Of a DNA stretch of 37,067 nucleotides, positions 3,815 through 36,374 are shown in pieces. The notes below the pieces were generated by a model, which had not been told where the DNA came from, made no database searches, and was given only the letters and a program-made list of their open reading frames with translations. Source of the DNA: Planctomycetaceae bacterium (GTDB lineage Bacteria > Planctomycetota > Planctomycetia > Pirellulales > Thermoguttaceae); contig JAITIZ010000325.1 of assembly GCA_031279215.1 (NCBI GenBank), forward strand, positions 1 to 37,067, written 5' to 3'. Position 1 is the first letter of the stretch; every line of letters starts with the position of its first letter. The position numbers and the translations under genes are program-made.

Positions 3815-4010
3815 AAAGGTAGGCAACGTTTCGCCGAAACATTGCACCAATTGGTTTTTGATTCCGTTCGTCAACAGGGGCAAGCCGGCGAGTACGCCGA
3901 CGCAACCGTGCGGGAAAGCCTTTTAGCAAAAGGCTCTCACCTACGGTTGCCTACCTTTCGAAAACATAATTGGTAATATAAAAACAACCAATTGATAACA
4001 GGGTTGAGTA
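3815..4010. repeat. Dispersed repeat with GGTAGGCAAC ends
   Basis: The segment opens with AAGGTAGGCAACGTTTCG and contains an inverted GGTTGCCTACC at about 3945-3955. Positions 3938-4010 recur inverted at 36778-36849 with about 90% identity by eye. Phrases such as GTTTCGCCGAAAC and ACGCCGACGC recur in the interior of the repeat at 16855-16995. It fills most of the gap between ftsH and the converging prenyltransferase gene. No coding potential. Confidence 0.7.
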
Positions 4011-4086: not shown

Positions 4087-4992
4087 CTACATAAAAAGAT
4101 CAAATAATCCGACAACAAGTAAACCAATCGAAACAAAAATATTCATTTGAAAAAAAGCAATATTGACACGTAACAAATCAATTGGTTTACCTGATTGCGG
4201 AACAGCAATCCAGTGTTCCGCCGCCAAAATCAGTGCCGTAACTACAACACCAAACTCAAAAATAAGTCCAAACAATTCATAAACGTATGGAATTAACGCC
4301 AAGCAAAGAACCGAAATAACATGGCATATTGCAGACAACCGGAATGCTATTTTATTTCCGTACTTGCCCGGTACACTGAATAAACCAGCCTTTTTATCAA
4401 ATTCCATATCTTGCGTTGCATAAATCAAATCAAAAGCAGTAACCCAGAATAACACCGCAAATGCCAACAAAATAGGCGGTAACGGAATTGGCCAGAGAAT
4501 TGGCCGAACAACAATCCAAGCAGCAAACGGAGCAAGCATTAAGGCCCCGCCAAGCCAAAAATGTACCGCAATTGTCCAGCGTTTGGCATAACTGTAGCAA
4601 AAAAGAAAAAGAAGCACCGGCACCGAAGCACAAAACGGAATCCAATTCGGAAGAAAAAGAAGTGTCGAAACAATAAAACCAACCGAACAAACCACAACAA
4701 AAAATAGAACACTTCGTACCGTCAACAACCCAGTAGGTAAATGCCGGTTCGCTGTTCGAGGATTTTGAGCATCCAACTCACAGTCAGCCCAACGATTAAA
4801 CCCCATTGCCGCACTTCGAGCAAATACCATACACAACAAAATACCAACCCATTCAATCACACGGGGACAATATTCCAAATCTTCATATAAATTCAGTTTC
4901 AATGCCATTGCCGCCCCCAGTATCGCAAAAGGTAATGCAAAAAGCGTATGAGAAAACCGAATCAAACTCAATAATTTTCGCAACAAATTCAT
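4087..4992 (-). CDS. UbiA-family prenyltransferase
   Basis: Integral membrane enzyme that transfers a polyprenyl chain to an aromatic acceptor, most likely for menaquinone or another quinone (UbiA/MqnP type). The 301-residue length is normal. The two Mg-diphosphate motifs are intact: NRWADCELDAQN (N66, R67, D70, D74, N77) with RTANR after it, and DLIYATQDMEFD (D188, Y191, D195, D199). About eight or nine hydrophobic helices are visible, starting near residue 14. The start lies 19 nt after the stop of the pseudouridine synthase gene, so it is probably the last gene of the chaperone-led run. The exact acceptor cannot be read from sequence; a futalosine-pathway role is inference. Confidence 0.9.
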   Translation of the reverse strand: MNLLRKLLSLIRFSHTLFALPFAILGAAMALKLNLYEDLEYCPRVIEWVGILLCMVFARSAAMGFNRWADCELDAQNPRTANRHLPTGLLTVRSVLFFVVVCSVGFIVSTLLFLPNWIPFCASVPVLLFLFCYSYAKRWTIAVHFWLGGALMLAPFAAWIVVRPILWPIPLPPILLAFAVLFWVTAFDLIYATQDMEFDKKAGLFSVPGKYGNKIAFRLSAICHVISVLCLALIPYVYELFGLIFEFGVVVTALILAAEHWIAVPQSGKPIDLLRVNIAFFQMNIFVSIGLLVVGLFDLFM

Positions 4993-5011
4993 TGTGTCAT
5001 TTAATCCGAAC

Positions 5012-5671
5012 TCAAAAAATCACAGTGAATTTTTTCCAAATCACCGGTATTGGCGCAGTTAGTATAATACGTTGGCATGTGGTCGGATGCGTAACAGTTA
5101 ATTTCAAAGCATGCAACGCAATTCCTTTTGGAAAAACAGTCTTCGCTCCATATTTTCTGTCACCAAAAATCGGAAAACCATGACCCGCAAACTGAACCCG
5201 AATTTGGTGTTTACGGCCAGTTTCCAACCGAATTTCAATTAAAGAATTATTGTTAGTTTTATGAAGAGTCCGGTATTGAAGTTTTACTTCTTTACCTTCC
5301 CCGTTTCGAGTCAGCCATACTTTTCGATGCCGTTCATCCTCCCGAATCCAATCAATCCACCCATCTTCCGGCGGATCAATAGAACCCTCCACTAACGCAA
5401 CATAAATTTTTTCAACAGAATGAGTACGAAATTGTTCATTTAACCGCGCCGCCGCCTTAGAGGTTCGGGCAAAAAGTACCACTCCCGACACCGGAATATC
5501 CAATCGGCTGACAACACCAAGATACACTTCACCCGGTTTATTATATTTCCGTTTAATATAATCTTTACTATGCGTCAAGAGCGTCTCCTCTCCTTTCGCA
5601 AGCCCCATCGTCGCCAGACCGCTCGGCTTCACAACTGCCAGAAGATGATTGTCCTCATAAAGTATCTGCAC
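5012..5671 (-). CDS. RluA-family pseudouridine synthase, no S4 domain
   Basis: Isomerises uridine to pseudouridine in rRNA or tRNA. The 219-residue protein begins directly with the catalytic fold (ILYEDNHLLAVVKPSG) and lacks an S4 domain. The signature normally read as HRLD is SRLD here; D58 is the expected catalytic aspartate. The C-terminal motif LETGRKHQIRVQFAGHG followed by GDRKYG is typical of the family. The start codon is GTG at 5669-5671, 11 nt after the preceding stop, with a purine-rich stretch before it. It lies between the zinc-ribbon gene and the prenyltransferase gene. The target RNA site is not predictable from sequence. Confidence 0.92.
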   Translation of the reverse strand: MQILYEDNHLLAVVKPSGLATMGLAKGEETLLTHSKDYIKRKYNKPGEVYLGVVSRLDIPVSGVVLFARTSKAAARLNEQFRTHSVEKIYVALVEGSIDPPEDGWIDWIREDERHRKVWLTRNGEGKEVKLQYRTLHKTNNNSLIEIRLETGRKHQIRVQFAGHGFPIFGDRKYGAKTVFPKGIALHALKLTVTHPTTCQRIILTAPIPVIWKKFTVIF

Positions 5672-5682
5672 TACTCTTACTC

Positions 5683-5952
5683 TTATTGAAAATCCCGCAA
5701 CAACCGTAACTGTTGCAAAATTTCATTTAACAAAACCGGATCTATTTGTTTAAGTTTTTGAGCATATCGTACCGCCTGACGATAATTGCCAACATCCAGC
5801 GCATCTGTCAATTTCCGCTCCAACAATTGAATATTTTCATTCAACTGCCGAAGTTCACTGAGATCTGTTCGGCAACGACGGCATACATCCTGCCATGTCT
5901 GTTCTACACCACAGGATGGACACCGACATTGTGTACGATTAGTTAGTATCAT
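5683..5952 (-). CDS. Small zinc-ribbon protein coupled to the Hsp70 gene
   Basis: An 89-residue protein with a CPSC pair at residues 11-14 and a CRRC pair at about 24-27 (a four-cysteine zinc ribbon), followed by a helical region of about 60 residues (NIQLLERKLTDAL, then NYRQAVRYAQKLKQIDP) that resembles one TPR-like helix pair. Its ATG overlaps the TGA of the Hsp70 gene (ATGA), which points to translational coupling. I do not recognise the family. The context suggests an accessory factor of the Hsp70 system; DnaJ also carries a zinc ribbon, so this could be a detached substrate-binding or regulatory piece, which is inference only. Confidence 0.85.
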   Translation of the reverse strand: MILTNRTQCRCPSCGVEQTWQDVCRRCRTDLSELRQLNENIQLLERKLTDALDVGNYRQAVRYAQKLKQIDPVLLNEILQQLRLLRDFQ

Positions 5953-7748
5953 ACCGAATCCTCTAAATAATACAAGAGATCATCCAATTGCGAAACAAGC
6001 GAAGTTATCTGATTCGAATCGTTACGCTTGATCGCATCAACAAGTTCTTTGATTCGCGTTTCGATATCTTTCTTGTCATCATCGGCTACTTTTGAAAGAT
6101 AAGCCGCTGCCCGTTGAATCAATGCAGCTTCTTTCGCATAATGTTGTTCCCAACCATCAGCAAGACCCAACCGGTTTATAAAGTTTTTATCGTCTATTGT
6201 TGATTCGGAACCGACTTGCTCCGGTTCAACCGAAACCGCTTCCTCATCCGCAAAAAAGCCGTTCAGATGTTCCCGGAATGACTGGTTGACTTCAGGTTTA
6301 TACTCAGTTAAAACGTTTTCGACAGTAATGTCCCCGGCAAGTCCGGTATCTTTTTCAGTTGCTGTTACATGCAAAATTCCATTGATGTCCAAATCAAATC
6401 GGCAAACAATCTGATTACCATGAGGAACTTTCGCAAGACCGGCTAAATGAAAACTGCCAATCTGCGCATTTTGACGAACATCATCAGCCTCACCTTGATA
6501 AACATTAATCTCTACCGTTTCCTGATTATCAACTACAGTTCCATAAACCTTGGAACGGGAACAAGGAATAGGAGTGTTACGTTTAATAATGGGTGAAAAA
6601 ATAAACGGCGAATATATTCTTGGATCAAAAACACTGGTTCCAAGAGTGTGAGGCGTAATATCAATCAAAACACGCCCCACCTTCGTACCGGAAATAAGAC
6701 CGCCCTGAATCGCCGCACCCATCGTAACACAAAGATCAGGATCAATTTCACCATGTAATTTATTACCCAACCGGCTTTCAAGTAACTCATGAACACGCGG
6801 TGTTCGCGATGCTCCGCCAACCATGATAACCTTGTCAATATCGTCAGGATGCAACTGAGCATCATTCAACGCATCATTGAGACAAGTCAGCGTCTTCTCA
6901 AGAAGCGGCATTATCTGTTCTTCATATTGATGACGACTCAACTCCATATCAAGATGTAATGATATTCCATTTTTTTCCGTAATAAATTCTTCTTTAATTT
7001 GAGTAAACGGTTCCGTCGAAAGACGTTTTTTGGCTTCTTCAACCGCTTGTAACACACGGGAAACAGCAACCGGAGTTTCACGAAGATCAATTTTATGCTG
7101 CTTTTTGAACTCATCACAAACATAATCGAAAAGCAATTGATCAAAATCATCACCGCCAAGATGAGTATCTCCGTGACTAGCCAAAACTTCCAGAACACCT
7201 TCTTCAACACGAACAATTGATACGTCAAATGTTCCGCCGCCAAGATCATAAACAAGCAATGTTTCCCGTTGGGTCGAATCGGAATTATAAACAAGCGATG
7301 CGGCTGTTGGTTCGTTGATGATTCGTACCACATCAAGACCGGCTAATTCCCCAGCAAGACGAGTCGCTTCGCGTTGCGTATCATTAAAGAACGCCGGAAC
7401 CGTAATAACCGCTTTGGATACTTTTTGACCAAGCGATTCTTCGGCATAAGACCTGAGCGTCCTAAGAATCATCGCAGAAATTTCAGGCGGCGTATATTCC
7501 CGTTCACCAAGTTGGACATGAACATCTTCGCCCATCTTACGCTTAATTGACTTAATTGTTCGCTCCGGGTAGAGAATCGCCTGATTTTTCGCCGGATGAC
7601 CAACCAAAAGATTGCCGGCTAAATCAATGCCAACTACTGATGGAAGAAGCCGATTACCGTCTTTTTCAATAACAACAACATCGTCACCGTGAATAACGGA
7701 TACCTCACTGTTGGTTGTACCAAGATCAATTCCAAGAATTGTTTCCAT
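5949..7748 (-). CDS. Hsp70-family chaperone (DnaK-like)
   Basis: ATP-driven protein-folding chaperone acting in the cytoplasm. The 599 residues contain the actin-like ATPase domain with phosphate-1 motif GIDLGTTNS (6-14), VPAFFNDTQREAT (118-130), phosphate-2 motif VYDLGGGTFDVSIV (166-179) and the adenosine motif VGGASRTPRV, then a beta-sandwich substrate domain and a shortened helical lid. It is shorter than E. coli DnaK (638) and ends in LEDSV without the acidic tail of housekeeping DnaK. It follows the repeat-tailed GrpE gene by 56 nt and overlaps the zinc-ribbon gene by 4 nt. Given the unusual partners I read it as a second, specialised Hsp70 and not the main heat-shock copy; a genome-wide count of dnaK genes would settle that. 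Confidence 0.93.
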   Translation of the reverse strand: METILGIDLGTTNSEVSVIHGDDVVVIEKDGNRLLPSVVGIDLAGNLLVGHPAKNQAILYPERTIKSIKRKMGEDVHVQLGEREYTPPEISAMILRTLRSYAEESLGQKVSKAVITVPAFFNDTQREATRLAGELAGLDVVRIINEPTAASLVYNSDSTQRETLLVYDLGGGTFDVSIVRVEEGVLEVLASHGDTHLGGDDFDQLLFDYVCDEFKKQHKIDLRETPVAVSRVLQAVEEAKKRLSTEPFTQIKEEFITEKNGISLHLDMELSRHQYEEQIMPLLEKTLTCLNDALNDAQLHPDDIDKVIMVGGASRTPRVHELLESRLGNKLHGEIDPDLCVTMGAAIQGGLISGTKVGRVLIDITPHTLGTSVFDPRIYSPFIFSPIIKRNTPIPCSRSKVYGTVVDNQETVEINVYQGEADDVRQNAQIGSFHLAGLAKVPHGNQIVCRFDLDINGILHVTATEKDTGLAGDITVENVLTEYKPEVNQSFREHLNGFFADEEAVSVEPEQVGSESTIDDKNFINRLGLADGWEQHYAKEAALIQRAAAYLSKVADDDKKDIETRIKELVDAIKRNDSNQITSLVSQLDDLLYYLEDSV

Positions 7749-7804
7749 AAATTTTAGGGATAGTAAATATTAAAGGTTGTAACAAAAAAGGATTAGAAAT
7801 ATGT

Positions 7805-9871
7805 TTAATGTTTCGTTTGAGATCGAACTGCAACACGAACATCTGCAAAACGAACCGGTTTGTTGCGCCAAAGATATCCTGCCCGAACCACCTCAACCAC
7901 ACTGCCCGGCTCTGTTGTATTCGTCTCAACTGTAGCAAGAACCCGCATCGTCTCTGGATTAACCGGTTCACCCGTCGGGTTAAGCCGGCAAATCGCGTGC
8001 CTTTTCAACACATCATCCATACGACTCTGCATCATCTCATAACCAAGCCGAAACGGTTCAAGTATTCGTTCAATTTCCAAAATATGTTGATGAGCAAGAT
8101 GTTCGGCAAAATGCCGGACTGCTCTTCGCTGCCAAAAACGCTGCCACGATGTTAATTCATCACAATAGGATTTAGCCAACGTCGAAATCCGCTCAAAAAC
8201 AAGACCCGTCAAACGTTCTTGCAAAACTTTCAGTGCCACACCCGCTCGCTGGAGTGCCTCGTCAATCTCAATCAAACTCATCAAATACGGTTGAATCGCT
8301 TTACGCTCAATCTCCGGACGCTCTTTACGCAAACGACGAAGTTGATCAAGCGTTTGCGAAGTTTCTTCTATATTCTTTTCAAGAAGTTCCTGGGTTTGCC
8401 GATTGGATTTGGTAAACAGCTTAAACTCATGACGCTGAGCCGTAAGCGTTTCAAAAACCTGATAAAACCCAATCTTCGGTAACTCCTCCTCCTCGCCGTC
8501 TGGCTCGTCTTTCGCAGCAAACCAGTCAATAAAATGTTTCAAAGTTTCTTCACGATATTTGAAAAGTATCTGTTCAAATGCCTTGAATTCTTCCGCTTCC
8601 GTCTGATTCAATAAATAATTTTCTTCGGTAACAATATTTTCTGTTTCATCTTCTTCCGTTTCCGTCTGATTCAATGAATAATTTTCTTCCGCAACAATAG
8701 TTTCAGTTTCATCTTCTTCCGCTTCCGTCTGATTCAATGAATAATTTTCTTCTGCAACAATAGTTTCTGTTTCATCTTCTTCCGTTTCCGTCTGATTCAA
8801 TGAATAGTTTTCTTCCGCAACAATATTTTCTGTTTCATCTTCTTCCGTTTCCGTCTGGTTCAATAAATAATTTTCTTCCGCAACAATAGTTTCTGTTTCA
8901 TCTTCTTCCGTTTCCGTCTGATTTAATGAATAATTTTCTTCCGCAACAATATTTTCTGTTTCATCTTTTTCCGTTTCCGTCTGATTTAATGAATAATTTT
9001 CTTCCGCAACAATAGTTTCTGTTTCATCTTTTTCCGTTTCCGTCTGGTTCAATGAATAATTTTCTTCCGCAACAATAGTTTCTGTTTCATCTTTTTCCGT
9101 TTCCGTCTGATTCAATAAATAATTTTCTTCCGCAACAATAGTTTCTGTTTCATCTTTTTCCGTTTCCGTCCGGTTCAATGAATAATTTTCTTCTGCAACA
9201 ATATTTTCTGTTTCATCTTTTTCCGTTTCCGTCTGATTCAATGAATAGTTTTCTTCCGCAACAATAGTTTCTGTTTCATCTTCTTTCGTTTCCGTCTGAT
9301 TCAATGAATAATTTTCTTCCGCAACAATAGTTTCTGATTTATTTTCCGTCGACTCTGTTGGAACTAAAATGAAATTTTGCTCCGCTGTAACCTGTTGCTC
9401 TGATTTACTTTCCTCCGGCTCGGTCGGAACTAAAATGAAATTTTGTTCTGCTGTAACTTGCTCTGATTTATTTTCTGCCGGTTCAGTCGGAACTAAAATG
9501 AAATTTTGCTCCGTTGTAACTTGCTCTGTTTTATCTTCTGCCGGCTCTGCTGAAACTAAAATGAAATTTTGTTCCGCCGTAACCTGTTGCTCTGTTTTAT
9601 TTTCTGCCGGCTCTGCTGAAACTAAAATGAAATTTTGTTCTGCTGTAACTTGCTCTGTTTTATTTTCTGCCGGCTCTGCCGGAACTAAAATGAAATTTTG
9701 TTCCGCTACAACATTTTCCAATCTATCTAATTCTGATTTTGCCGGAATTAAAACAAAATTCTGTTTTGCGGAAATATTTTGTTTTACAACAATATTTTCC
9801 GATATCGTTTCCGAAGAGAATTGGAATGATTCATTCGGTTGCTGTACTGCCGCTAATTCGTTCTCTATCAT
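7805..9871 (-). CDS. GrpE nucleotide-exchange factor with long repeat tail
   Basis: GrpE releases ADP from Hsp70. Here 688 residues replace the usual 200 or so. Residues 54-428 are 18 tandem units of 21-22 residues (19 with a degenerate one before them): first six of the type TAEQNFILVPAEPAENKTEQ, then twelve of the type IVAEENYSLNQTETEEDETE, strongly acidic and Gln/Asn/Thr-rich. Residues 429-688 hold the GrpE-like part: a long helical region (FETLTAQRHEFKLF, TSQTLDQLRRLRKERPEI) and a C-terminal beta domain with GEPVNPETMRVLATVET, EPGSVVEVVRAGYLWRN and PVRFADVRVAV, matching the GrpE pattern. The next gene downstream is Hsp70. The tail is probably extended and surface-exposed; its role is unknown. 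No Shine-Dalgarno before the ATG. Confidence 0.92.
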   Translation of the reverse strand: MIENELAAVQQPNESFQFSSETISENIVVKQNISAKQNFVLIPAKSELDRLENVVAEQNFILVPAEPAENKTEQVTAEQNFILVSAEPAENKTEQQVTAEQNFILVSAEPAEDKTEQVTTEQNFILVPTEPAENKSEQVTAEQNFILVPTEPEESKSEQQVTAEQNFILVPTESTENKSETIVAEENYSLNQTETKEDETETIVAEENYSLNQTETEKDETENIVAEENYSLNRTETEKDETETIVAEENYLLNQTETEKDETETIVAEENYSLNQTETEKDETETIVAEENYSLNQTETEKDETENIVAEENYSLNQTETEEDETETIVAEENYLLNQTETEEDETENIVAEENYSLNQTETEEDETETIVAEENYSLNQTEAEEDETETIVAEENYSLNQTETEEDETENIVTEENYLLNQTEAEEFKAFEQILFKYREETLKHFIDWFAAKDEPDGEEEELPKIGFYQVFETLTAQRHEFKLFTKSNRQTQELLEKNIEETSQTLDQLRRLRKERPEIERKAIQPYLMSLIEIDEALQRAGVALKVLQERLTGLVFERISTLAKSYCDELTSWQRFWQRRAVRHFAEHLAHQHILEIERILEPFRLGYEMMQSRMDDVLKRHAICRLNPTGEPVNPETMRVLATVETNTTEPGSVVEVVRAGYLWRNKPVRFADVRVAVRSQTKH
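8588..9712 (-). repeat. 63-bp coding minisatellite in the GrpE gene
   Basis: Eighteen tandem copies of a 63-bp unit (two units are 66 bp) encode the GrpE tail. Copies at 9329-9712 belong to type A (EQNF-containing) and 8588-9328 to type B (EENY-containing). Within type B the unit ends alternate DETET and DETEN and the variants EKD and EED cluster, which points to growth by block duplication. Since 63 is a multiple of three, gain or loss of units leaves the frame intact. Confidence 0.95.
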
Positions 9872-10020
9872 TTTTTATTTATATTCGTTTATAATTTATA
9901 ATATTCTCAAACCCGCAAAACAAGTGTTTGTAGAAAATACACTTCATACACTCTAATACGGGAACAAATTGTTAATTTGTTACAATTCAATTAAACCGTT
10001 CAACAAAAAATTGTACTGAT

Positions 10021-10311
10021 TTATTCTCCCATTTTAAGGAGTGCTGAGGTTGGCAATCGTTCATTTCGAATGGCTGTGAGGAATACTTCGATAATTTGTT
10101 CCATAGAATCATTATGATGTAACGATATAAGTAATTCGGAAATTGTTCCGAGCGGATCACGAAGTTTTTCGTATGCCTCATGAATTTTCGAAAACTTATC
10201 AGGATGCGATTCCGGCGGAAACTGTTGAACTAATTCAAGATACCGCTTTCGCAATACTTCTTCAGAACAACCCGGTAATAACTCCAATGTGTGATAATAA
10301 ATATCGTACAT
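10021..10311 (-). CDS. J-domain-like mini-protein with displaced HPD
   Basis: A 96-residue protein whose first 53 residues follow the J-domain pattern: YDIYYHTLELLPGCSEEVLRKRYLEL (helices I-II) and KIHEAYEKLRDP (helix III). J proteins stimulate Hsp70 ATPase through an HPD at the end of helix II. Here that position reads FPPE (31-34), and an HPD appears at 36-38, only one residue before the helix III phenylalanine F40; the loop is shorter than usual. The C-terminal 40 residues are helical and unassigned. It lies between the TPR-like gene and grpE, so a role as co-chaperone of this Hsp70 is likely. Whether the displaced HPD works is unknown. 149 nt separate it from grpE. Confidence 0.82.
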   Translation of the reverse strand: MYDIYYHTLELLPGCSEEVLRKRYLELVQQFPPESHPDKFSKIHEAYEKLRDPLGTISELLISLHHNDSMEQIIEVFLTAIRNERLPTSALLKMGE

Positions 10312-10383
10312 AAATCAAATAATACTGAATAATTTGTGATTTTCGTATTGTTTCAATGAAATTTTAGTAAATTTATTTGCGTC

Positions 10384-13224
10384 TTATCTTTTATTTTTTT
10401 TCTTCTTTTTGAAGTGTTTAGGAGTAGGGAACAGATAGTTATCGTCATCGTCGTCGTCATCATTATTGTTCTTTTCGTTTTGTTGTAAACTACTAATTTG
10501 TACTATAGCGGAGATAAATCGCATTCTTTCTAATGGGGGCAACGAGTCCGCTTTCTTCATCAAATATTTATCCACTTGATCCATTGGAATTCCTTGTGCC
10601 AAACACTCCAGAAAAGTATCAAACATCAGTACACGCAATTCCCCCAATTCCTCCGGCAAAGAATTTATCAAATCTTGTTTTAACTCCGGCGGCAAAACGC
10701 CTTTCGCAATGGATTCTTTGAGATCAGGCGGAATATCAATAATATTACGTGAAGAATTAAACCTAGAAGAAAAGAGTTTTTCCTCCTCGTTATCAAATTT
10801 GTAATAGTCATCGCCGTCATCATCGTCATCATCATCTTCGTCATCAAAAAATTCATAATTTTTATTATCAAATCTATCATAACCATACGACAACAAATAA
10901 TCAATATCGTCAAACCGTAATTTTGCTTCATTAAGATAAAATTCCAACACCGGATCATTTCGAAAATGACCGCACTGTTCAATAAATGATTGATATTTTT
11001 TAATTGTTGAATCTCGGCATGACATTTGATAATATCTTGATTCCAGAAAAAATATTTCTGCATCGAAAAAAAGGAAATACGGAGAAAGCGGAAATTGCGA
11101 AAGTCCTTTTTGGACTAATTTTTTGTACATTGCATCGTAATCATGTTTTCTAAGTTTGACCGCAAGATACCAGAGAACTTTACACGCTCCGTATATATCT
11201 TTTTCCGTTTTCCATTTAACCTGTGCCGACCGATTGATAAAATCAAATATTTGTAAGAGAATTTGTTTGGAATTGGTAAATGTTTTTTTTTCAACCATGA
11301 TCGTGTAAGCAATATTGCCCAACGCGCCGGCAAGATTACCGTTACAACGTCCGGTAATAGCCGAATTCCATTCGTCCTGAAACGATTGGAGAACTTGTAC
11401 AGGAAATTTGGGAAAATTCTCAACTTCCAAAAAAATTGTCAGTATCAATGGAAGACGTTTTTCCAAACCTACTTTTTCAGCCAATGTAAACACATTTTCC
11501 GCCTCAGACGGATGATTTGAGATTGTTTCATAAATATATCTCAATGCTAACGGTACTAAATCATAATTGTATTCAATTGTATTAAGATTTGTCTCTTCAA
11601 TTTCTTTGAACAGTTGTTCTATTTCGGAGTGTTCCTGATTCAATTGCAACAGTTCTTTTAAACGGACATATTGGAGTTTCCGTTTCAAAAATATTGGTTC
11701 ACGGGAAAGGGGTTCCAGAGTTTGGATTCGCTCAAGATAATGAAGAGCATCCGCATAATTCTCTTCAGCAATATAATATTGGAACAAATATTTTAATGCT
11801 TCTATATTGTTCGGAACATGTTCAATAAGTTTGCGGTAAACTTCAGCAATTTTCGGATGATGCTGATTATTTTCGTGTTCGGGAATAGTGATGCAATAAA
11901 ATTCCTGAAGACGAGAATATGTAATGAGATAAGTTGGATCGTATGCAATGGCTTTATCAAAATATTTAGAGATTTTCTCTTGTCCCTGAATTTCATCTTC
12001 ATTATGATACGAATCAAAATCATTATTATATAACGACTGCATGATGAGATTGCCGAGAAAACTGTAAATAACAGCCTTCGCACGGGCTTTCATATTCGGA
12101 GTAAACGATTTGATTTGGTCAATATCATGTTCGGCAAAGAGTTCAAAATAATAAAGCGGATCCCGAAGCCATCGAGGGATATGGCCTCCTTTTTCCCTCA
12201 TGCTTGTACTTGATCCAAAATTGAGTGAAAGTAACCCTAATGTTCGATTACCTCGCGGGTCAAACGGAAGCGGAAGATTACGTTCAGCAAATTGCCTAAC
12301 GATTTCCGGTTTTGCTTCGTCAACAAGAGTAAAATGTACTGTACGAAAAACACGATCAAACAAAAGCGGGTCTGTTTTTTGAAGAAAAGAACGGGACACT
12401 TGAAAATGCCCAATTAGTTCCTTATATTTTTTTTGCCGGATATAATTATCCAGTTGACGAAGATGATTAAAAAATTCAATTTTTTCCGTCTGAACCGAAT
12501 CGGTTTTGGCACGGAATAGATCAAAGAACCGTGAAACAAAATTAGATGAAGAAGCGTTGGGATCATCGGTGAAGAATTTCCGCAAACGGCTGACAATTTG
12601 ATATGGCGGACGCGAATCTGATAGCCGTTTCCAACTTTCATTAGCTTTTTCATCATTCTTATTGTAATAAGAAATCAACCCTCGAATAAAAAGCCGCCAT
12701 TCGGACAAAGGAGAATGAAATGAAATGGGATGAAGCAATTCCAAAGCCTCATTATCAAGTTTTGCCTCAACTTTTTCGAAAGCTTTTTTAATTAGAATTG
12801 CTTGATCGCGAAGGTCAGGTAATAAATCGTCGGAGTTTTCGCCATAGACAAGAAAACGATCTACCAATTCAATTTGAATTTCGGGAGAATTCATATCCTG
12901 ACGCAGATGTTCCGGTAACAATGCGTTCAAGCCAAGAACCCGAAAGATTGCAGGAAATTCTTTTTGTATTTCTGAGTTTTTGATATTTGGATTTTTGATT
13001 AGCCGAAGCAATTCCTTAATATTCGTTTTAGCTTCTTCTCGTTGGTTACGGTTGAACTGTTCTTTGATCCATTCCCACAGCGAAGAGGCGAGTAATTCCT
13101 GCAATTCCGGTTCATTATGGAGTCGGCTTAAAAACAAAGCTTCTTTATAAGCCTTCTTCCAATAACCTCGACGCCGTAAATCTTGTATTTTGTTAATTTT
13201 AGGTTGTAATTTGGCAGAAATCAT
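10384..13224 (-). CDS. Large TPR-like helical repeat protein with acidic tracts
   Basis: A 946-residue, apparently soluble protein without signal peptide. Helical repeat pairs of TPR type are clearest around residues 425-530 (AYDPTYLITYSRLQEFY; PNNIEALKYLFQYYIAEENY; ADALHYLERIQTLEP). Two aspartate runs lie near 793-812 and 918-930, and the protein ends in a lysine-rich tail (HFKKKKKNKR). It is the first gene of the minus-strand run, 72 nt before the J-like gene. TPR proteins often bind Hsp70 or its clients, so a client adaptor or scaffold role is plausible but inferred. I do not recognise a named family. No promoter or CIRCE-type operator could be identified upstream. Confidence 0.85.
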   Translation of the reverse strand: MISAKLQPKINKIQDLRRRGYWKKAYKEALFLSRLHNEPELQELLASSLWEWIKEQFNRNQREEAKTNIKELLRLIKNPNIKNSEIQKEFPAIFRVLGLNALLPEHLRQDMNSPEIQIELVDRFLVYGENSDDLLPDLRDQAILIKKAFEKVEAKLDNEALELLHPISFHSPLSEWRLFIRGLISYYNKNDEKANESWKRLSDSRPPYQIVSRLRKFFTDDPNASSSNFVSRFFDLFRAKTDSVQTEKIEFFNHLRQLDNYIRQKKYKELIGHFQVSRSFLQKTDPLLFDRVFRTVHFTLVDEAKPEIVRQFAERNLPLPFDPRGNRTLGLLSLNFGSSTSMREKGGHIPRWLRDPLYYFELFAEHDIDQIKSFTPNMKARAKAVIYSFLGNLIMQSLYNNDFDSYHNEDEIQGQEKISKYFDKAIAYDPTYLITYSRLQEFYCITIPEHENNQHHPKIAEVYRKLIEHVPNNIEALKYLFQYYIAEENYADALHYLERIQTLEPLSREPIFLKRKLQYVRLKELLQLNQEHSEIEQLFKEIEETNLNTIEYNYDLVPLALRYIYETISNHPSEAENVFTLAEKVGLEKRLPLILTIFLEVENFPKFPVQVLQSFQDEWNSAITGRCNGNLAGALGNIAYTIMVEKKTFTNSKQILLQIFDFINRSAQVKWKTEKDIYGACKVLWYLAVKLRKHDYDAMYKKLVQKGLSQFPLSPYFLFFDAEIFFLESRYYQMSCRDSTIKKYQSFIEQCGHFRNDPVLEFYLNEAKLRFDDIDYLLSYGYDRFDNKNYEFFDDEDDDDDDDGDDYYKFDNEEEKLFSSRFNSSRNIIDIPPDLKESIAKGVLPPELKQDLINSLPEELGELRVLMFDTFLECLAQGIPMDQVDKYLMKKADSLPPLERMRFISAIVQISSLQQNEKNNNDDDDDDDNYLFPTPKHFKKKKKNKR

Positions 13225-13847: not shown

Positions 13848-13977
13848 TCTTGCCGCCCTTTCAGGGCTTTGAAATAATTGATGATTCATGCCCCACCCCG
13901 TTGGGGCGGGCTATAATACTAACGCCCTTTCAGGGCTACTATGGTTGTTATCTACAATAATTCTACTGAAATATTAC
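13848..13977. repeat. Family-c end with GCCCTTTCAGGGC palindromes
   Basis: The right end AATTCTACTGAAATATTAC (13959-13977) is the inverted family-c terminus. With the palindromes at 13853-13935 and TAGTTGTTATCTACAATAAT-like sequence, it matches the left part of the element at 1078-1301 in opposite orientation. The matching left terminus is not seen; element b sits in its place. Nothing else is seen to about 14170 apart from a related ATTCAGCAGCA motif at 14012. Confidence 0.6.
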
Positions 13978-17259: not shown

Positions 17260-18459
17260 TTACAGTGCTTTCGACTCACCGCCGGCAGGTGTTCCAAACG
17301 CTCCCCAGACTCCGTATGGGCTTTCGCCCTTTAAAGCTTTACCTTGTGGTCCATTGGGAAGTCCATTTGTGTCAACAGTGTCGGAGACAAAACTCACGGA
17401 ACCGTCTATTCTGCCGCAATTCACTCCTCCTGGATGATTACTGCTTGCCGTATAAAGCCCCCAGACAATTTCACTGCTTGTGCGTGCGCAACTTGGGGCA
17501 TTGGGCGGCATAATGGTATTAAATCCGGTATATAAAACCAAACCATCTAAGTAACGGCTACAACGCCAGTGAGGAAATGATGTTGTTCCTGCGGTAAAAG
17601 TTGATCCGTTTTTAATCGCCATACAAGCGGAAGGAATAAGTTCACGATTAGCGTACGCACTTCCTTGAATCCCTACCCCTACTACCGCAACTCCTCCCTT
17701 GATCAAATCATTTCCTGCTGTAGGACCAGCAACACATTCACTGATTGCAACAGTATTACTAGTTCCATCGATAACAGACTTAATGGATTTCCAGTATTTG
17801 GGATAGAATAGCCCCCGTGACATAACATTGTTCGCTTTGTCACCACTATCAGGATCGTATTGAGAAATCTCCAATGCGCCATCTCCGTAACTAACAACAA
17901 GATTTCCGCGAGCACAGTCGGGACCGGATGTTTTGGAATTCTCTTCGGACGGACAGAGAACTGTTGCAACATTTTTTCTGACACTGTGATCGGCAGATAC
18001 ACCGCCCCATGGAGAACTTGTCTCTACTCTGATGGCATCAAAAAGAGCCTGTTGTTCCATAAAAGGAAGAAGGCAATACGTGGCACTGAAACGTTCGGTA
18101 TCTGTGCTTGTGCTGTGGCACGGATTTTGTGCCGCAGGGAACGAGCTGTATGTGTCGTGATAGTTTTGGAGTCCAATCGTCCATTGTTTCATGTTGTTGG
18201 TACATTGCATTCTTCGCGCTGCCTCGCGCGCCGCTTGAACGGCAGGTAACAGTAATGCGATTAACACCCCGATAATTGCAATCACCACAAGAAGTTCAAC
18301 TAACGTAAAACCGAACAAAGAGGGACGAAAATAAGAGAAAAAGTTACATTTGACACAAGAAAATTTCTCATTAACTTTTTTCTCTTTTAACATTTGGTTT
18401 TTCGCGAAAATGACCGTCAAAAAACCAATAACATAATTCATTAAATTTTCCATTGTCAT
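17260..18459 (-). CDS. DUF1559 pseudopilin-like protein (399 aa)
   Basis: A secreted or envelope protein of the DUF1559 family. Residues after the leader show the type IV prepilin motif: G before [14 protein letters not shown], a hydrophobic helix and AAREAARRMQCTNNMKQ. The C-terminal H-x9-DG signature is HPGGVNCGRIDG. The leader before the cleavage site is unusually long (about 50 residues) and begins MTMENLMNYVIGFL; it aligns with the leader region upstream of the DUF1559 gene at 19172, including a shared QMLK. AAGGA precedes the start codon, which supports this long form, with the ATG two codons later as alternative. The gene lies between two small lipoprotein genes. Exact function of DUF1559 proteins is not known. 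Confidence 0.93.
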   Translation of the reverse strand: MTMENLMNYVIGFLTVIFAKNQMLKEKKVNEKFSCVKCNFFSYFRPSLFGFTLVELLVVIAIIGVLIALLLPAVQAAREAARRMQCTNNMKQWTIGLQNYHDTYSSFPAAQNPCHSTSTDTERFSATYCLLPFMEQQALFDAIRVETSSPWGGVSADHSVRKNVATVLCPSEENSKTSGPDCARGNLVVSYGDGALEISQYDPDSGDKANNVMSRGLFYPKYWKSIKSVIDGTSNTVAISECVAGPTAGNDLIKGGVAVVGVGIQGSAYANRELIPSACMAIKNGSTFTAGTTSFPHWRCSRYLDGLVLYTGFNTIMPPNAPSCARTSSEIVWGLYTASSNHPGGVNCGRIDGSVSFVSDTVDTNGLPNGPQGKALKGESPYGVWGAFGTPAGGESKAL

Positions 18460-19171: not shown

Positions 19172-20518
<1,347 letters not shown>

Positions 20519-30966: not shown

Positions 30967-32028
30967 ATGACTTCATTTTATTTCAATCGGTATTTTGGTA
31001 TCAGACGTGCGTTTACACTGGTGGAACTTCTGATTGTTGTTGTGATTATTAGTATGTTGGCGGGACTTCTCATTCCGGCGGTCAACTACGCACGAGAAGC
31101 CGCACGGCGTACCCAATGTATCAACAACCAAAAAAATCTCGGCATCGGCATCATCAATTACGCCACAAACAACAACGGATTGCCGGGTTATCTCAATCAG
31201 TTAGGAAGATATTCTAACAATTCTCCTCGTATGTTGAGTTGGGTTGTTGCTATTCTGCCGGAAATTGAAGAGAATAAACGTTATGAAATTTTGATCGCTG
31301 ATGATGCCGCTGATGATGTCGATGATGATGACAATCACTTTGACAATGCAGCACCAGCTCTTCAATCCTCACCTCCAGTACTAATTTGTCCTTCTGCATA
31401 TCTTCAACAACGATCTGATACTCCGATTTTGAGTTACGTTGTCAACTGCGGACCAGAAGCAAATTCAGGAGATGGGACCGCAATTACCGGTAATGTTACT
31501 CCTACATTTACACTTTTCAAAGATCGGCGCAGTACATTAACCACTATCAACAAAAAAGTTAAATTAGATGAAATCGTTGATGGAACAAGTAATACGATTT
31601 TGCTTTCTGAAAATATGCAGGCATGGACTTGGTGGGATTCTGATTGGAGTATTAGTATTTCTACAATTTTTGCACCCAATGAACTTCTTAATAATACACG
31701 TGAACTTAGTAATACACGTTGTTCTCTTATCGTTGCGAGTTTAGGCTTCGTTTGGTCGAATAGAAGTGGTACAAGCTTTCTTTCAAAGATCAACGCTGGT
31801 CGAGAAACTGAGCCAGTGCTAACAAATACCAACAAGGCACGTCCGTCATCAATGCATCCTGGACTTGTCGTTGTCCTTTACGGCGATGGTTCCGCTAAAT
31901 CAATGGATGATGATTGCGGTTTCGGACCCTATCTTTCCGCCGTTTGCCCGAATGATACAAAAGCAAAGAAGACTGTTAGTGAAGGCGGACTCGGTTATTC
32001 TGCTGATTTCCAAAAAAAGACTTGGTAA
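30967..32028 (+). CDS. DUF1559 pseudopilin-like protein (353 aa)
   Basis: Prepilin-type N-terminus after a short basic leader (YFGIRRA before [15 protein letters not shown]), with alanine rather than glycine before the cleavage site, then [19 protein letters not shown]. The C-terminal H-x9-DG motif is [12 protein letters not shown]. An aspartate cluster (about residues 113-125) is an unusual insertion. Unlike the other long-leader DUF1559 genes here it has a 17-residue leader and no lipoprotein partner next to it. TATAAT at 30901-30906 is a possible -10 element. Envelope location expected from the family; role unknown. Confidence 0.93.
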
Positions 32029-35474: not shown

Positions 35475-36374
35475 TCAGTCACCGGCATAGGCGGTGAAGG
35501 TGGAGATGAAGATTTCGGGATGAATAGTTTCCGAGAGAAAATGAACGGTTCCATCTCCGTAACAGAAATTGGCTCCGCCGTAATGAAAACTATAGATTTC
35601 GTTTTGATTGGTACAATTAAATAGTTGTGTTCCGCCTGCTCCGCAGGATTCATGAACATAAAATGCGGCTCTGTTGCTTGCCCAATCAGCGCCGGATTCT
35701 TTTCGCTGTTTAGGTTCTGTATTAGCGAATTCAACGAATTGCCGTCCAATATTGTACTTAAATGGTCTTGCGGCGCATTCGGAAAACATTATTGTACGGG
35801 AAAGACCGTCTGTTACCGAAGCAATCGAAACAATTTTTTCATTCGGTGGTTGGAGCATTCCGTATAATCCGTAAGGACTATTCCGTTGGGTTGCGATACC
35901 GTTATCAAACAATGGTTTAATTTTTCCTTCTGTGCGTTGCATTTGTTCTGCAACGGTGTAATCACCGGTAAAATATTCATAATTATTGTATTGAAATTGT
36001 TTTGGAGATTCGGGACAAAGATAAACCGGCAAACGAATTTTTGTTGCTTCATTATCAAACCAATGTTTACTGAAGTCAATTTGATCGTGAAGAGATTGCT
36101 GTTCCAAAAATGGAAGAAGAAAGGACAAGACATGATGTTTAATTCTGGAATCGCTCATATCCTGAATTCCCCATTTTGACGGGGGAAATTGGTCATAGAG
36201 ATTGTGATAATAATGAGCGGCAAGACCGATTTGTTTCAAATTATTGGTACATTGGAGTTTTCGCACGGTAGCGCGAGCGGCTTGAACTGCCGGAAGAAGC
36301 AATCCGAGAAGAACAGCAATCAATCCGATCACGACAAGGAGTTCAACCAATGTAAACGCGGTATTCGGTTTCAT
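35475..36374 (-). CDS. DUF1559 pseudopilin-like protein (299 aa)
   Basis: Short leader MKPNTA, then [16 protein letters not shown], a hydrophobic helix and AARATVRKLQCTNNLKQIG. The C-terminal motif is HYGGANFCYGDG (H-x9-DG). It is the shortest of the four DUF1559 proteins here, with alanine before the predicted cleavage site as in the 353-residue one. The next gene downstream on the same strand is the LpoB/CsgG-like lipoprotein, 212 nt away with a repeat hairpin between. Envelope protein of unknown role. Confidence 0.93.
   Translation of the reverse strand: MKPNTAFTLVELLVVIGLIAVLLGLLLPAVQAARATVRKLQCTNNLKQIGLAAHYYHNLYDQFPPSKWGIQDMSDSRIKHHVLSFLLPFLEQQSLHDQIDFSKHWFDNEATKIRLPVYLCPESPKQFQYNNYEYFTGDYTVAEQMQRTEGKIKPLFDNGIATQRNSPYGLYGMLQPPNEKIVSIASVTDGLSRTIMFSECAARPFKYNIGRQFVEFANTEPKQRKESGADWASNRAAFYVHESCGAGGTQLFNCTNQNEIYSFHYGGANFCYGDGTVHFLSETIHPEIFISTFTAYAGD

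Follow-up and report, generated by a model that had tools for sequence, protein, structure and literature searches.

In the bacterial Hsp70 systems DnaK, HscA and HscC, an Hsp70 works with a J protein, and no J protein is considered able to work without the histidine-proline-aspartate (HPD) motif. For the DnaK-DnaJ pair, the J histidine forms a bond with L391 in the linker, the proline is in contact with P419, and the aspartate interacts with both R167 and Q378 (PMC8215388). The nearest published gene neighborhood to the locus described here is that of a subset of the GAP1-N2 GTPase-centric conflict systems, where Hsp70, GrpE, and DnaJ or tetratricopeptide repeat (TPR) domains occur together (PMC7159879). 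Our locus lies in a stretch of 37,067 nucleotides from a Planctomycetaceae bacterium (assembly GCA_031279215.1, contig JAITIZ010000325.1, positions 1 to 37,067 of the forward strand; hereafter the window) and encodes a TPR-like protein, a J protein lacking HPD, a GrpE, a divergent Hsp70 and a zinc-ribbon mini-protein. From the comparisons given below, the reading we favor, with a probability of about 0.55, is that these genes would constitute an accessory Hsp70 system, complete in itself and distinct from the housekeeping DnaK-DnaJ-GrpE set. It would be inherited, and also passed on horizontally, as a cassette of five genes, with a rewired J-Hsp70 contact and the TPR protein as client platform. 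No published description of this five-gene set was found in the literature searched, a coverage that largely leaves out subscription journals and preprints.

Recurrence of the five-gene cassette

All the results rest on sequence and predicted structure, and many of the surveyed genomes are fragmented. The open reading frame (ORF) listing gives seven ORFs on the minus strand at positions 4087-13224 of the window, as described in an initial annotation of this DNA, which took the seven as a unit. Judging by the comparison between genomes, the true unit is smaller, being five genes in the fixed order TPR solenoid, 96-residue J protein, GrpE, Hsp70 and zinc-ribbon mini-protein (5683-13224, minus strand). 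The same order is observed at 16 complete loci from several planctomycete families and one Nostoc plasmid (the window, L041, L046, L050, L052-L054, L073, L076-L079, L196-L198 and the Nostoc plasmid L081), where the cassette genes are all on one strand and mostly overlap or are separated by short gaps; additional loci interrupted by contig ends were kept outside this count. Such a recurrence in different families and in another phylum is beyond chance. Also, TPR-J-GrpE-Hsp70 sets are present on three Acaryochloris plasmids. One Acaryochloris strain carries three cassette copies on three plasmids (L083, L084 and L085), where L083 has both the Hsp70 and the TPR frame broken, L084 that of the Hsp70 and L085 that of the TPR protein, which could reflect decay or sequencing errors. 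Beyond Planctomycetota, the sampling of phyla consisted of plasmid, phage and viral records together with a single pattern scan over the genome collection; plasmid searches with the planctomycete TPR or GrpE protein as query gave no matches. A phage origin was ruled out, since the cassette is absent from the 80 best viral-contig Hsp70 loci and the matches in phage records correspond to other Hsp70s with less than 60% identity.

A strong match to the Hsp70 (E<=1e-140) is found in 14 of 297 genomes of the order, and a strong match to the cassette GrpE (>200 bits) in 4 of 392 genomes across the phylum, the own genome counted. Among the 60 nearest relatives, the TPR protein is present in 18, the J protein in 15 and the Hsp70 in 15, with a near-perfect co-occurrence (Fisher p=1.5e-11 for TPR with Hsp70 and likewise for TPR with J, uncorrected for relatedness). 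Within the own genus, the cassette appears in only about half of the genomes, which are incomplete, and in several of them (G007, G019) a TPR-J-GrpE contig stands apart from the Hsp70, both parts being retained. For the same-genus genomes G007, G018, G019 and G020, the cassette is apparently split over separate contigs or loci with its parts kept (L200, L201, L202-L203, L205-L206). Moreover, when the pairwise identities are compared between the TPR, J, GrpE and Hsp70 proteins, the correlations have r values of 0.88-0.97. A tree of 45 Hsp70s places the 24 cassette members in one group (support 100/99) with a stem of 1.34, apart from DnaK; here the cyanobacterial copies are sister to the planctomycete ones, and the copies of other orders branch within the group (L196 with L078, L197 with L073, and L198 with L053/L054). 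The co-occurrence, the correlated identities, the nested tree and the retention of both parts when the cassette is split argue for one functional unit moving between genomes.

The host genome (5.46 Mb in 716 contigs, the window being on contig C100) has its nearest named relatives among Planctomycetaceae metagenome-assembled genomes, and we take it, from isolate codes and general knowledge, to be a termite-gut planctomycete. A canonical DnaK of 640 residues is encoded on a separate contig (C312), GrpE and DnaJ genes lie side by side on another (C404), and a second HPD-bearing J protein is on a third (C244); two further short Hsp70 paralogues are found on contigs C251 and C76. These separate dnaK, grpE and two dnaJ genes rule out the window locus as the housekeeping set, in agreement with the initial annotation, which had proposed a specialized chaperone machine provided that other dnaK and grpE genes existed in the genome. 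Its second proviso is likewise borne out, the TPR and zinc-ribbon genes being kept with the Hsp70 in relatives. What it did not note were the plasmid copies in another phylum, the absence of HPD from every cassette J protein and the changes in the Hsp70 lid, linker and L1,2 loop.

The J protein and its probable contact with Hsp70

The cassette J protein (10021..10311, minus strand) reaches 30.2 bits against the Pfam DnaJ profile, over a cut-off of 27.8, and a profile built from 15 cassette J proteins matches DnaJ in the PDB at E=9e-10. In the HMMER alignment, the residues P32-P33-E34 (codons at 10210..10218, minus strand) are placed under HPD, and in the structural model this PPE is located in the loop of a helix II-loop-helix III hairpin, the best Foldseek matches of the model being J domains with a root mean square deviation of ~1.5 Å over ~50 residues, at E above 0.01. 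The J protein had initially been described as having a displaced HPD. However, the HPD at residues 36-38 corresponds to the start of helix III in the model and is present in only 2 of the 29 orthologues, so that it is coincidental, and the motif has been lost rather than moved. At the equivalent site, HPD occurs in none of the 29 orthologues; PPE (19), PPD (5) and SPE (1) are found in planctomycetes and PAH (4) in cyanobacteria. For comparison, HPD is kept in 19 of a sample of 20 ordinary J domains from related genomes.

The single case without HPD in this sample adjoins another unusual Hsp70, in a second accessory arrangement. This arrangement is observed in three other planctomycetes (L231:5297-10361, L232:5610-9924 and L233:6580-11119) and consists of an Hsp70, a protein of 340-443 residues and a long protein with an N-terminal J domain where the HPD site reads KPE. 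J proteins lacking HPD may then recur among accessory Hsp70 loci.

The cassette Hsp70 (599 residues; 5949..7748, minus strand) matches the Pfam HSP70 profile with 520.6 bits (cut-off 20.6, E=6e-156) in two stretches, the best being 76-591, across the nucleotide-binding and substrate-binding domains. However, it falls below the curated cut-offs for DnaK, with 558 against 648 bits (PRK00290) and 554 against 822.55 bits (TIGR02350), and below that for HscA, with 426.9 against 708.55 bits. Three features are shared by the class. The L1,2 loop of the β-subdomain of the substrate-binding domain has 14-19 residues between LG and the RN motif compared with 10 in DnaK, being 16 in the window (6591..6638, minus strand); the linker is GxVLVD in place of DVLLLD; and the lid is reshaped and shortened, with a conserved ELDDLLFYL-like helix at its end and without a disordered tail. 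At another locus (L234:5147-8140), a 997-residue Hsp70 runs on into what, judged by eye, is a Ser/Thr protein kinase-like domain (GEGGMGSVYKA ... HRDIKPSN).

With respect to the contact between both proteins, the planctomycete cassette Hsp70s retain the equivalents of R167 (codon at 7323..7325, minus strand) and P419, and nearly all that of Q378, and their J proteins retain the proline and an acid (E/D) at the HPD site. In the four cyanobacterial cassettes, the J protein has PAH and the Hsp70 a glutamine at the R167 position. This covariation looks compensatory because, in E. coli, the DnaK R167H substitution suppresses DnaJ D35N (PMC7289447, PMC5519331). The change of the J aspartate to histidine together with that of R167 to glutamine in cyanobacteria thus suggests, at the sequence level, a real pairing at a contact.

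The other components and their surroundings

The GrpE protein (688 residues; 7805..9871, minus strand) is recognized by Pfam with 59.9 bits (cut-off 25.8, E=3e-16) at residues 603-681, covering the C-terminal half of the profile (domain at 7829..8065, minus strand), and a motif VExFTAxRHExK upstream of this domain is conserved in the cassette family. The repeat tail of 375 residues initially assigned to it is right in length but not in position. According to Tandem Repeats Finder, units of 63 bp (21 residues) in 11.9 + 5.9 copies cover about 373 residues in the N-terminal part (8588..9707, minus strand). The repeat number varies within the genus and the orthologues from other families outside it are free of repeats, which rules out this lineage-specific region as a functional hallmark, although it had been put forward as a defining feature.

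The head gene (10384..13224, minus strand) encodes a 946-residue protein with an acidic and then basic C-terminal tail. Its initial description as TPR-like holds in that AlphaFold2 predicts a continuous all-helical solenoid (mean predicted local distance difference test, pLDDT, of 78) with a disordered acidic tail, and orthologues head every cassette that is not cut by a contig end; nonetheless, its Pfam TPR matches are weak. A fold search of the PDB with this model returned generic helical-repeat solenoids at very low TM-scores, uninformative on function. At the other end, the 89-residue protein (5683..5952, minus strand) has only sub-threshold zinc-ribbon matches in Pfam, and a core CPxC...CRRCxxDL with four conserved cysteines is almost invariant from planctomycetes to Nostoc, being followed by TPR-like helices in some orthologues (Nostoc and another). 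In line with the coupling to the Hsp70 proposed in the initial annotation, its start overlaps the stop of the Hsp70 by 4 bases (5952 vs 5949), and at other loci the overlap is often exactly 4. From this arrangement, the zinc-ribbon protein would probably be made in step with the Hsp70 through translational coupling.

Downstream of the cassette, Pfam identifies an RNA pseudouridine synthase (RluD; 5012..5671, minus strand), probably co-transcribed, and a UbiA prenyltransferase (4087..4992, minus strand). Both were ruled out as cassette parts since they adjoin it only in close, own-genus relatives, and are passengers. A terminator-like stem-loop with a 10-pair stem downstream of UbiA (3823..3845, minus strand), found as a consensus match only, is a possible transcript end. 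Apart from the five, no gene is found repeatedly at distant cassette loci, a comparison that included a search for a neighboring client gene, and those flanking genes that were scanned have unrelated functions in metabolism, transport or regulation. This argues that the client is not encoded next to the cassette. In the intergenic space separating the apolipoprotein N-acyltransferase gene from the TPR gene, the window has short inverted-repeat elements (GCCCTGAAAGGGC copies, 13880-13950). Further along, there are four DUF1559 (SBP_bac_10) proteins (17260-18459, 19172-20518, 30967-32028 and 35475-36374), at least one of them with a pilin-type methylation motif; from general knowledge, this set is presumably ordinary for planctomycetes.

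Proposed mechanism, alternatives and known systems

In the mechanism that we propose, the TPR solenoid would select and hold a restricted client, or serve as the working platform of the machine. The small J protein, with its J fold kept and its catalytic histidine lost, would dock on the Hsp70 through the rewired contact, where planctomycetes keep the acid facing R167, and would either bring the Hsp70 to the TPR-bound client or stimulate ATP hydrolysis in an HPD-independent manner, which the altered Hsp70 linker would make possible. The dedicated GrpE would reset the cycle, and the zinc-ribbon protein could be an assembly factor or a redox-sensitive holding factor. A further-reaching proposal, which we regard as tentative and rather doubtful, is that the cassette represents a distinct class of Hsp70 machine, mobile between phyla, where ATP hydrolysis is productively triggered by a J domain without HPD, the linker and L1,2 changes replace the contact between histidine and linker, and the TPR protein is a mandatory co-activator.

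Several observations weigh against the reading of a self-contained accessory system. The covariation between R167 and D35 is one evolutionary split, involving two cyanobacterial genera; the Acaryochloris copies are devoid of the zinc-ribbon gene and some of their frames are broken; in three relatives the TPR protein is present and no cassette Hsp70 was detected, possibly owing to genome incompleteness; the confidence of the J model is modest (pLDDT 66, predicted TM-score 0.41); and the roles of the TPR protein toward a client and of the zinc-ribbon protein are read from architecture.

The loss of HPD could also mean that the J protein is a regulatory pseudo-J, which would bind or restrain the Hsp70 as Pam16/Magmas does, while the HPD-bearing housekeeping DnaJ proteins encoded in the same genome deliver the ATPase stimulation. 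HPD is never found at the equivalent site in the cassette family, changes in this motif abolish stimulation in every tested system (PMC8215388), and Magmas, without it, cannot stimulate mitochondrial Hsp70 (PMC8605242). However, Pam16 works by pairing with a true J protein in a heterodimer, and no cassette encodes such a protein; also, the dedicated GrpE and the R167/D35 covariation favor a direct productive pairing, making this explanation unlikely, if the closest of the competitors.

A role in conflict or defense, with the TPR protein as sensor of an invader and an effector under the control of the Hsp70 cycle, would fit the patchy presence of the cassette, plasmids included, its horizontal transfer and the combination of Hsp70, GrpE and DnaJ/TPR proteins in GAP1-N2 systems (PMC7159879). 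Nonetheless, the window neighbors and the scanned flanks at other loci have no GTPase, GAP1 or variable effector, PADLOC gave no convincing match (one weak partial match to the Hsp70, at 20 bits), and the 80 best viral-contig Hsp70 loci are devoid of the cassette, so we consider this role improbable. Less probable still, and already disfavored, is that the locus is simply another DnaK-DnaJ-GrpE operon serving general stress, to which the TPR and zinc-ribbon genes were added incidentally. All three components of the cycle are certainly present, and the genome has other Hsp70 paralogues, but the Hsp70 scores under the DnaK cut-offs and belongs to a separate long-stem clade, the J protein is one bare domain without HPD, no CIRCE heat-shock element is found in the window, and conservation of the TPR and zinc-ribbon genes extends across phyla.

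Compared with the housekeeping DnaK-DnaJ-GrpE system, the self-contained accessory cassette has in common an Hsp70, a J domain and a GrpE, and hence probably an ATP-driven cycle of binding and release. However, it differs in the absence of HPD, the bare 96-residue J protein, the enlarged L1,2 loop, the GxVLVD linker, the shortened lid and the lack of an Hsp70 tail, as well as in its dedicated TPR and zinc-ribbon partners and its separate clade. HscA-HscB and HscC-DjlB/DjlC are also accessory Hsp70s with their own J proteins, and the enlarged loop recalls HscC, where L1,2 has an insertion of 4-8 residues (PMC8215388). Nonetheless, these systems presumably work without a GrpE, and their J proteins are recognized partners, whereas the cassette encodes a GrpE, which argues against HscC, and a J protein without HPD. 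As for the GAP1-N2 systems, their DO-GTPase, GAP1, effector and FNIII fusion have no counterpart in the cassette.

Pam16/Magmas shares a J domain without HPD working with Hsp70 and GrpE, but Pam16 depends on a translocase and on a genuine J protein as partner, and the Magmas motif is DKS (PMC8605242) compared with PPE in the cassette. Moreover, Ruc/Rv0991c (PMC7448276) is also a small four-cysteine zinc-ribbon protein, and ruc is often near DnaK/DnaJ/GrpE genes, in planctomycetes too. In this case, the C-terminus of Ruc is disordered, whereas the cassette protein has TPR-like helices and a CRRCxxDL signature, with no sequence match established between them. DafA of Thermus (PDB code: 9dvi) is presumably comparable as a small protein complexed with Hsp70 and Hsp40, a likeness taken from the PDB title and general knowledge.

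Finally, the only J protein of this operon is without HPD in all 29 orthologues, and the cassette, with the matching change at R167, is a natural system for testing what HPD does. With it, the bacterial Hsp70 systems gain a type linked to TPR and zinc-ribbon proteins. In kind, the cassette is an Hsp70-J-GrpE system, but its Hsp70 is not DnaK, HscA or HscC, and its J protein is not a canonical one.

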